Notes under the pieces: model-generated | Told to the model about the DNA's origin: nothing | Seen by the model: the letters and a program-made list of their open reading frames with translations, nothing else | Database searches by the model: none | In this document: positions 3,158-42,895 of the stretch, one piece after another | Layout: the number at the start of each line of letters is the position of its first letter | Numbering within the stretch: position 1 is the stretch's first letter | From: Blastocatellia bacterium | GTDB lineage: Bacteria > Acidobacteriota > Blastocatellia > Pyrinomonadales > Pyrinomonadaceae | Direction of reading: 5' to 3' | DNA: 64,000 nucleotides | Assembly: GCA_003168335.1 (NCBI GenBank) | Contig: PMSM01000006.1 | Span: 310,001-374,000, forward strand | Made by a program: the position numbers and the translations under genes

Positions 3158-3370
3158 AGGCCCGAAGGGCCGGCATTCAATAGCCACGCCCGTGAGGGCG
3201 TGGTCAGGATAATCTTGAAAGGTTTTAAGGCCCGAAGGGCCGGCACTTCCTGTGGTCACAATTTCATCAAATCCTTAAATTGTGCCGCACCTTCGGCGCT
3301 CATGGGTCTGGGATATCTCTTGATCCACGCCCTTACGGGCGTGGCTATTGAATGTCGGCCCTTCGGGCCT
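3158..3370. repeat. REP-A palindromic element (two 46-nt arms, inverted)
   Basis: The left arm at 3158-3203 and right arm at 3325-3370 are inverted copies with 2 mismatches in 46. Each arm itself carries two small hairpins (GGCCCGAAGGGCC and CCACGCCCGTGAGGGCGTGG). Smaller degenerate units lie between them (3228-3247, about 3282-3300). The same architecture recurs at 12863-13047. It fills the 370-base gap between a plus-strand and a minus-strand gene, so it may also act as a bidirectional terminator. Confidence 0.9.
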
Positions 3371-12862: not shown

Positions 12863-13047
12863 AGGCCCGCAGGGCGGGTATTCAATAGTCACGCCCGTGA
12901 GGGCGTGGAACACAAACGAGAAGTCATAATTGAGGCCCGCGGTGCCGACACAAATCGGTGCCGCGCCTTCGGCGCTCGAATGTTATCAAGACTGGCTCGA
13001 TCCACGGCCTTACGGCCGTGGCTATTAACTTGCGGCCCTGCGGGCCT
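12863..13047. repeat. REP-A palindromic element, second copy
   Basis: Arms of 46 nt at 12863-12908 and 13002-13047 with the same two-hairpin layout as 3158-3370, but with CCCGCAGGGCGGG-type substitutions that are partly compensatory. The inner part carries GGTGCCG-ACACAAAT-CGGTGCCG and GCGCCTTCGGCGC. It fills the gap before the amidohydrolase start. Confidence 0.85.
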
Positions 13048-41545: not shown

Positions 41546-41719
41546 TTCTCTACCCGATACCTTTCATTCACGGCCTTTCACAGGTCCTTTCCGTGTCCGC
41601 GTCAATATACGATAGGCCCGCGGGAATCGTTCCGTAAAACCTGAGAGGGCCCGCACGCTCAGGAGATCGACTGACAAGAGAAGGCTTACTAAGTGGATAA
41701 TCTTTGGGTCGACCGTGAG

Positions 41720-42055
41720 GAAGCAACTGGCGAGGTCGCTTCCGACAAGGAATGTCCAGGGAACGCTTGGCTATCACCTGGGAACAGATGACCTGTGCTT
41801 TGGCCCGAATGGGCCGTGCCGACTAATTCCGGTGCATTCCGCAACACGGATCATGCGTGGACGGGCACTGGTGAGCCGTGGCTGGGCACTGGTGATCCGT
41901 GGCTGGGCACCGGTGATCCGGAGACTGGCACGTGTCACCTGTTGCTCCGTCCGTGTGTCCCGGGCTCTGGCCCGTCCGGTTCGTTGGACGGCACGCGTCA
42001 TACGTTCCTCGGAACGGCTCATCCGTTCCGACTAGCTCCCTGCGGAATTGGCCGA
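41720..42055. repeat. Degenerate 21-bp periodic array (about 16 units)
   Basis: The block can be cut without gaps into sixteen 21-mers. The best four, at 41846-41929, share the pattern AC-GGTGATCCGTGG-TGGGC; units at 41867 and 41888 differ by one base. Outer units are strongly diverged but keep phase. Several adjacent units form hairpins, for example CGGAACGG-CTCAT-CCGTTCCG at 42010-42030, GGCCC-GAAT-GGGCC at 41802, and CGGGC-TCTG-GCCCG near 41960. Because 21 is a multiple of 3, all frames stay open in places and yield spurious ORFs. There are no unique spacers, so it is not a CRISPR. Confidence 0.8.
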
Positions 42056-42073
42056 AAAGACCACAATTCCGCA
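42041..42073. repeat. Perfect 10-bp hairpin at the end of the array
   Basis: TGCGGAATTG (42041-42050) and CAATTCCGCA (42064-42073) with a 13-base loop. It closes the 21-bp array on its right side. Confidence 0.75.
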
Positions 42074-42123
42074 GTAACTGTAGATTTGGGAGAAGGTGTT
42101 TGCCATGGCGTTTTCCTCGTTCT

Positions 42124-42307
42124 CTCCGTTAGGAGCGAAATGTTTATAGCACGAGTTGCCCTGAATAAATCCTCGCTCCTTTAGGAGCGAAATGTGCAGA
42201 ATTATCCATATCAAACGGTATCCGTACATTACGCTCCTAACGGACTTCAAAAACATTTTGGGATAGTCGCGACGTCTATAAACATCTTACCCCTGACGGG
42301 GTGAAGA
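42124..42307. repeat. REP-H element, copy 1
   Basis: About 184 bp. It starts CTCCGTTAGGAGCGAAATGT, has TTTATAG near its left end and CTATAAACATCTTACCCC near its right end (a short terminal inversion), and ends with a CACCCCTGACGGGGTG-type hairpin. The first 121 bases are identical to 42921-43041. Confidence 0.9.
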
Positions 42308-42319
42308 CCTTGTCGGCGC

Positions 42320-42895
42320 TTACCTCATTCGGCGTCCCTGCTCCGATTCTTCAGTCAATTTGTCGATCCGCTTGAGTCGGGTTGCTTCCTGCTTGGCGCT
42401 GACGACCCACCAGTTCATGACCTTACGGTAAGACGGCGGCTGGGCCTGGAAAAACTTCCATGCCGCCTTGTTTCGTTTCAGTTTTCCTAAATAAGGCTCG
42501 ACCAGCTCAGGACTTCTCTGTTCGTATGAATAAATTCCCGATCGGTTTTCTTTCCGCGCCGAGAACGCTTGCAAACCCGCGGGCTGCATTCGATTCTCTT
42601 TGATCAGCTTGGCTACGTTCCCGATATTCACCGCGCTCCAAACACTGCTCGGCTTGCGCGGCGTGAAACGAATCATGTAGCTCTCTTCATCGATGCGCTT
42701 GCGAACGCCGTCGATCCAGCCAAAGCAGAGCGCTTCATTGACGGACTCGGGCCAGTCGATGCTCGACTTGCCGGAATTCTTTTTAAAGAAGCCAACCCAC
42801 AACTCTCTCGAAGTGCCATGATGAGCTGCGAGCCATTTGCGGAAGGCGGATGGGCTTTTGAAGAATTGGGGGTTCACTGTCAACCCGATAGCCAT
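42320..42895 (-). CDS. YdeI/OmpD-associated (OmdA) family protein
   Basis: A 191-residue cytoplasmic protein: FFKSPSAFRKWLAAHHGTSRELWVGFFKKNSGKSSIDWPESVNEALCFGWIDGVRKRID is the conserved first half, and PYLGKLKRNKAAWKFFQAQPPSYRKVMNWWVVSAKQEATRLKRIDKL the second. Members are widespread with no settled function. It is bracketed by two nearly identical REP-H elements in direct orientation. Confidence 0.9.
   Translation of the reverse strand: MAIGLTVNPQFFKSPSAFRKWLAAHHGTSRELWVGFFKKNSGKSSIDWPESVNEALCFGWIDGVRKRIDEESYMIRFTPRKPSSVWSAVNIGNVAKLIKENRMQPAGLQAFSARKENRSGIYSYEQRSPELVEPYLGKLKRNKAAWKFFQAQPPSYRKVMNWWVVSAKQEATRLKRIDKLTEESEQGRRMR

Follow-up and report, generated by a model that had tools for sequence, protein, structure and literature searches.

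A solo, probably decaying 21-bp palindromic array in a Blastocatellia genome and the gene-linked array class to which it is assigned

An array of 21-bp palindromic units in the window, which is the whole 64-kb stretch of DNA analysed here, is very probably a solo, decaying member of a class of arrays linked to the gene of one protein family. The gene-array pair is marked by its link to the gene, a fixed 21-bp period, dyad symmetry with covariation, the absence of coding, gaps of whole units, and turnover of the units, and solo arrays exist in the genome of the window and in two sampled genomes that hold the gene. A first-pass annotation had offered a structured RNA, a multi-site protein-binding array, or a decaying minisatellite; the last two of these fit in part, and the main point, the link of the array to one gene family, lay beyond the reach of the window sequence alone.

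The array in the window

Identity at lag 21 over positions 41720-42055 was 0.48, compared with a mean of 0.26 for dinucleotide shuffles (z 8.4), and was equalled by 0 of 300 shuffles, as was also the case at lags 42, 63, and 84. The array is the strongest lag-21 stretch within the window (0.65). The left part (41720-41855) alone gave 0.37 versus 0.25 and the right part (41929-42055) alone 0.46 versus 0.28, each with 0/300 shuffles; because these outer parts pass on their own, the array does not reduce to the four best units of the first-pass annotation, which had named lag-21 autocorrelation against shuffled controls as the check. Its description of sixteen in-phase 21-base units was upheld as to the array and gave way as to perfect phase, a 1-bp slip being seen by eye between 41802 and 41843 and again in another copy of the array (L002, below).

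The array proper, comprising approximately 15-16 units with no partner gene beside it, was placed on the minus strand at 41718-42041 using lag 21, two other genomic copies, and the alignment with L002; read on that strand, it has the orientation of this gene-linked copy, in which the array precedes the gene. The best-conserved central units lie at 41856-41928 (minus strand), the only part detected by TRF (period 21, 3.1 copies, 88-90% matches). The distal end is closed by a hairpin at 42040-42074 (minus strand), with counterparts in both other copies, in which the arms 42040-42050 and 42064-42074 flank a 13-nt loop; by eye, the stem is perfect, as had been annotated, but is 11 rather than 10 bp long and reaches past 42055. 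The distal boundary was set by the alignments at 42075-42079 (minus strand), the last bases in common with L002 (AGTAACT, ending at 42079). Judged from the copies, the whole element therefore covers approximately 41718-42079 rather than the 41720-42055 first assigned.

Other features were observed nearby. REP-like palindromes (GCTCCGTTAGGAGCGAAATGTTTATAG type) at 42117-42138 and 42171-42192 stand directly beside the distal end of the array; such palindromes also lie beside the distal end of the third copy (L003:1400-1477), and stretches similar to them adjoin the gene at 42320-42895 in two genomes of the same genus (G001 and G005). A 24-codon ORF (MANTFSQIYSYCGIVVFSANSAGS; 42034-42108, minus strand), whose ATG is preceded by GAGG, resembles the start of IS200/RAYT transposases; as to a possible insertion of the array in a RAYT gene, blastn comparison of this ORF's flank (E <= 0.1, same strand) with 10 of the genome's 14 Y1_Tnp loci gave no match. 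Elsewhere in the window, three RNAs scored above the gathering cut-off as Acido-Lenti-1 (RF01687), at 3158-3203 (minus strand), 3325-3370 (plus strand), and 13002-13047 (plus strand); the distribution of this RNA suggests Acidobacteriota as the phylum.

Copies in the genome and the corresponding place in relatives

The two further copies, found by DNA search of the same genome, are L002 (C9:187581-187963) and L003 (C12:151408-151675, other strand). Of the 333 bases aligned between the window array and L002, 270 are identical, and the alignment contains two gaps, both exactly 42 bp long; with L003 the identical bases are 245 of 328, and there are three large gaps, each summing to 21. Gaps of these sizes indicate that the order of the units is ancestral and that the larger length changes involved whole units, which suits in part both the protein-binding array, as do the palindromic units, and the decaying minisatellite of the first-pass annotation. 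Among the 119 genomes of the family, a two-unit pattern matched this genome only. In a check for more copies in this genome, 16 loci from pattern matches were examined, and lag 21 was best in five, four inside known arrays and one weak (L018, 0.42).

Within the genus, G001 has kept the left neighbour to approximately 41642 and the gene at 42320-42895, with a different gene and no such array between them. A 27-bp repeat (L005:2047-2313) was observed within the gene that occupies this place in G001. G003 and G005 show only the gene at 42320-42895, with small repeats beside it in G005, and are therefore uninformative on the gap that holds the array. Since no array stands at the corresponding place in G001, the window array is young or was lost there and is not a fixed part of the locus.

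Stem pairs in which both bases had changed with pairing preserved numbered 0 of 29 (window array to L002), 0 of 41 (L002 to window array), and 2 of 32 (window array to L003); the same count in other homologous arrays gave 0 of 55 (L137/L138) and 0 of 19 (L122/L125). Stem changes among the three copies seem not to be compensated beyond chance, and the window array, as the decaying minisatellite would have it, seems to be drifting. With no excess of compensatory point changes, symmetry seems to arise as new units spread. Absence from close relatives with random drift in the stems, which the first-pass annotation held to tell against its reading, came true in part for this copy: G001 has no array, and compensatory changes are not in excess.

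Linkage to a gene family

The L002 array stands approximately 70 bp upstream of the gene for an uncharacterised 220-aa protein (L002:787-1449, minus strand). A degenerate two-unit pattern run over genome contigs (257 Gb) gave two matches, both of them 21-bp tandem arrays in other groups: L041 in a Prevotellaceae MAG (G142) and L042 in a Planctomycetaceae MAG (G143), each from a genome that holds further arrays. Arrays L045 and L048 of G142 stand upstream of relatives of the L002 gene (L002 and L045 proteins 33% identical, E 6e-36).

A set of 52 loci was chosen from searches of three chosen genomes, the phylum of the window genome, the class of G143, and the order of G142; 50 were counted, L142 and L146 being dropped for short upstream DNA. 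The 50 include partial-profile matches, so that a "locus" is not in every case a proven intact gene. Excluded beforehand were edge or partial loci with no array (L101, L102, L105, L106, L107, L112, and L117), loci without an upstream array (L123, L131, L133, L135, and L136), loci without upstream DNA (L141 and L164), repeats of loci in the set, 10 matches from the order of G142, and four loci that were examined later (L151 and L152, no array; L153 and L157, lag 21 best at 0.65 and 0.55).

In the 700 bp upstream of the homologs, lag 21 was the best of the 31 lags from 10 to 40 in 46 of 50 loci, and was best with an identity of at least 0.5 in 40 of 50; in the 700 bp downstream it was best in 4 of 45. 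The corresponding upstream baselines for ordinary ORFs (at least 150 aa, six sampled sets) were 6.6-11.4% and 0-5.4%. The binomial chance of 46/50 under the highest baseline is 6e-39, a figure that overstates the case because the loci are related. The exceptions were L108 (start estimate off, array seen), L109 (lag 21 second), L128, and L143. Two results tell against the reading: at L094 lag 21 was best at only 0.40 with no run at 0.5, and four of the seven intact loci of G566 were only weakly periodic (0.37-0.45). Over 44 loci, the median array had approximately 14 units and the median gap to the estimated gene start was approximately 87 bp. From a sister genus, 11 of 18 matches were used, namely four full-length loci, in all of which lag 21 was best upstream (4/4), six fragments, relics, or weak matches, in which it was best once and weakly (0.42), and one weak distant match with an array (L262, 0.69); the remaining seven were five loci already counted and two fragments without an array (L265 and L268). 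Other tandem arrays were observed near family members (L110:3065-3253; L119:2139-2432; L264, downstream), with periods of multiples of 8, 26 bp, and 14 bp.

Using the L002 protein or a 17-member alignment (A2), family matches were obtained in 3/3 chosen genomes, 7/396 genomes of the phylum of the window, 3/297 of the class of G143, 18/393 of the order of G142, and 12/41 of one sister genus, weak matches included. Both the family and its arrays are present in three groups of bacteria, and the distribution is patchy. Carriage by phages, plasmids, or viruses was ruled against: no relatives of the L002 protein were found among viral contigs, plasmids, and phages, and a scan of viral contigs with the array pattern gave 0 matches.

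The L002 protein had no Pfam family, and none was common to the 17 members; no NCBIfam family was assigned to the two members searched. Scans of the 17 members against Pfam, PHROGs, and PADLOC returned isolated weak matches only; PADLOC, searched for known anti-phage defence, gave a single one, to Can1 (1/17, E 0.0018), and no PADLOC family was common to the 17. The AF2 model (pLDDT 90.7, pTM 0.49) combines an N-domain of long helices with a beta sandwich at the C-terminus, an FN3 fold (VIA Z 12.3, rmsd 2.1, 93 residues aligned to 5e53_B; Foldseek E 8e-5). The N-domain, modelled alone, reached a pLDDT of 94 and had no convincing counterpart among solved folds, those that bind DNA included: Foldseek gave 0 matches at E <= 0.001, and alignment to 59 chains gave a VIA Z of 6.6 at best. 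No signal peptide was evident by eye. At L095, L096, L097, and L100 the matched C-terminal part is preceded by an N-domain of another type (DWLKQNHEDLYDQA-like, YWIPYNHDALHKQA), again with 21-bp arrays upstream.

Unit sequence, symmetry, and coding potential

Units differ from locus to locus (e.g., GCTGAAAnnnTTTCAGC, ACTTAAAnnnnATTAAGT, and GGMACnnnTSAnnnGTKCC) and are unrelated between most loci, and L048 (= L073:158-801) passes through three families of units while staying in one 21-bp register. L113 and L119 encode proteins with 97% identity, and their upstream regions have no blastn match to each other. At L095 and L097 (70% identical) both array flanks are kept at 82-85% around different units, and L137 and L138, with identical proteins, have an upstream identity of 92%. 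Period and symmetry are constant while the unit sequence turns over.

Dyad covariation over 33 arrays had a mean z of 2.23, compared with 0.61 for a column-permuted null with centres re-chosen, and 29 of the 33 lay above the null. Covariation with the arm of the neighbouring unit was nearly as strong (mean z 1.82 at shift -1 and 1.20 at shift +1), which tells against the reading, as local homogenisation thus accounts for part of the dyad covariation. When 25 arrays with an assigned sense strand were pooled (the strand of the window array and L003 being assigned by homology to L002), there were 1558 Watson-Crick pairs versus 1367.7 expected, and G.T and A.C at dyad positions were equally depleted, at 0.899 and 0.898 of expectation. 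Equal depletion points to duplex DNA more than to RNA: with no sense-strand wobble preference, an RNA hairpin is a poorer account than a palindrome in duplex DNA, or template switching, would be.

These counts bear on the structured RNA of the first-pass annotation, which they do not specifically support and the odds of which they lower. The array would in that case be transcribed as a leader (5' UTR), or as a stand-alone RNA in the solo copies, and its 19-nt hairpins with 2-nt linkers would either regulate the gene or act as a sink for an RNA-binding protein. The position of the arrays directly 5' of the gene agrees with a leader, as do putative -7 boxes (TATTTTTG and TACCTTTG, which we take to be of the Bacteroidetes type) that visual inspection places at the distal end of three G142 arrays, L041, L045, and L048; however, no sigma-70-like promoter was found distal to the window array (one match elsewhere, 0.6 expected), and four of the eight solo arrays of G028 are flanked by convergent genes. 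The window array folds slightly better than shuffles, but about equally well on its two strands (z -2.8 and -3.0). Single changes at paired positions between L122 and L125 give G.T in five of six cases, and by eye the pairing of the terminal hairpin is kept in both other copies, through wobble-type pairs in L002 and one pair changed on both sides in L003. Rfam 15 had nothing in the array at the gathering score, and at E <= 1 only mir-4081 (25.3 bits versus a cut-off of 70). Overall, an RNA is considered unlikely.

A coding origin as a heptad protein, which the first-pass annotation had entertained, was rejected as improbable: substitutions among the window array, L002, and L003 fall evenly on the three codon phases (p 0.33 twice), and in 20 of 25 arrays every one of the six frames is interrupted by stops. 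Long heptapeptide ORFs across the Bacteroidales arrays are as expected of a stop-free 21-bp unit.

Solo arrays and array dynamics

Period-21 arrays numbered 11 in 239 kb of G142 and 8 in 400 kb of G028, two genomes that hold the gene. Part of the G142 sequence came from contigs selected because they carried known arrays, and its 11 arrays comprise gene-linked as well as solo ones. The 464 kb sampled from the window genome, in stretches chosen around the known copies, contained two period-21 arrays, both known (two of the three), and no solo array beyond these. G566, in which the gene is present, had 0 in 400 kb away from the gene, a result against the reading. Genomes without a gene match had 0 in 634 kb (G005, 400 kb; 20 genomes from the order of G142, 234 kb), versus 19 in the 639 kb of G142 and G028 pooled. 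Over the six sampled sets, periods of 16-20 and 22-26 were represented by at most 3 arrays per sample and 15 in total, versus 21 arrays of period 21.

The eight solo arrays of G028 lie between genes or at gene ends, half of them (4/8) between convergent genes. Solo and gene-linked copies within one genome were L081/L096 (91%), L192/L109 (87%), L003/L002 (82%), the window array and L002 (81%), and L072/L091 (79%). Since 7 of the 8 solo arrays of G028 and 6 of the 8 of G142 are unlike every gene-linked array sampled, copying can account for only a part of them. An all-against-all blastn of 31 arrays from three genomes gave 8 similar pairs within genomes.

The possibility was considered that the arrays are selfish in a REP/RAYT-like manner, the protein or a recruited host enzyme making or spreading 21-bp units with no function for the cell. 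The occurrence of solo arrays in gene-holding genomes with 0 in the 634 kb lacking a gene match, the derivation of some of them from gene-linked arrays, the patchy distribution of the family, and the near absence of periodicity at fragments, relics, and weak matches (1/6) are all in keeping with it. It is nevertheless judged improbable, given that no transposase, nuclease, or polymerase signature was found (Pfam and PADLOC, 17 members; NCBIfam, two members), that the C-domain is FN3, and that most arrays of one genome have no common sequence.

Unit identity declines along the array, from 0.655 between neighbours to 0.399 at 12 units, and mid-array units are closest to the consensus, the edge values being somewhat too low because the array ends were set by window. 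The strong divergence of the outer units reported in the first-pass annotation would be accounted for by these trends. They would also be expected of plain, functionless minisatellites, formed by slippage on quasi-palindromes with template-switch correction and tied to the gene by shared mobility, as would large gaps in multiples of 21; template switching would equally yield the symmetric G.T and A.C depletion. A period of 21 held across unrelated sequences and a tight, repeated link to one gene family argue against such minisatellites, which are regarded as very unlikely.

Proposed mechanism and significance

A mechanism in which the array is a DNA platform and the linked protein its predicted binder is put forward tentatively. 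The unit would correspond to two turns of B-DNA (2 x 10.5 bp), so that the sites would all face the same side of the helix and cooperative protein binding would be possible. The array would serve as a multi-site platform whose geometry counts more than its bases; recognition of particular bases is made less likely by the conservation of the protein where the neighbouring arrays are unrelated in sequence. Cooperative binding, for which a dimer of the linked protein is the likeliest candidate, would depend on shape or symmetry, and the bound array would control its own downstream gene. Arrays would be renewed by internal duplication of units, a new unit spreading from the middle while the edges decay, and occasionally an array would be copied elsewhere without the gene, as in the window, such offshoots then decaying. 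We place the complete reading (solo copy, DNA platform, and autoregulation) at about an even chance.

We lean towards regarding the system as a new class of element, consisting of a gene for a helical plus FN3 protein and a near-obligate upstream array that is conserved in geometry alone, is renewed locus by locus, and seeds solo arrays across gene-holding genomes. No described family fitting it was found in the literature searched, from which most subscription papers were out of reach, and we know of no system that keeps a 21-base spacing while the array sequence changes completely. Homology-based annotation would miss a cis-acting DNA element that is preserved in its spacing and symmetry rather than in its sequence. 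If the reading is true, it would provide a clean test case for the birth, homogenisation, and copying of tandem DNA arrays in bacteria, and it would also bear on what the FN3 protein does beside such arrays.

Comparison with known systems

CRISPR arrays consist of repeats with unique spacers; here, as the first-pass annotation had stated, the units are contiguous at 21 bp and no unique spacers separate direct repeats.

The palindromes of REP/BIME-RAYT systems are reported to carry a GTAG/CGTC tag at one end. Dispersed extragenic palindromic units are common to both systems, whereas the present genomes do not have one sequence each (8 similar within-genome pairs among 31 arrays) and the linked gene does not encode a Y1 (IS200/IS605-like) tyrosine transposase, its product having no Pfam family and an FN3 C-domain. 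REP/BIME elements with RAYT are likewise palindromic, extragenic, and multi-copy with a linked gene, the presence of which accompanies repeat abundance (PMC2817692). They differ in their Y1 transposase partner, and the present arrays stand on one side of the gene in a strict 21-bp tandem, with units that share period and symmetry and mostly not sequence (PMC2817692).

PARCEL elements similarly have tandem dyad-symmetric units and a patchy distribution, but encode a 25-residue motif, whereas the present arrays are of 21 bp and non-coding (PMC2996958). No translated repeat was found here, the unit being 21 bp rather than 75 and 20/25 arrays having stops in six frames.

Plasmid iterons are tandem units of approximately two helical turns that immediately precede the gene for the protein that binds them. 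The present arrays would be analogous, with tandem units of about two turns right upstream of a gene whose product would bind; unlike iterons, they occur in several copies per genome at scattered places, with a unit sequence that varies by locus, and the adjacent gene is not a rep gene (no Rep family for the linked protein in Pfam or NCBIfam).

Bacterial minisatellites and VNTR loci change in number by whole units and are more uniform in the middle than at the edges. Both properties are shared by the present arrays, which differ from minisatellites in keeping one period over unrelated sequences and in having a recurring neighbour gene.
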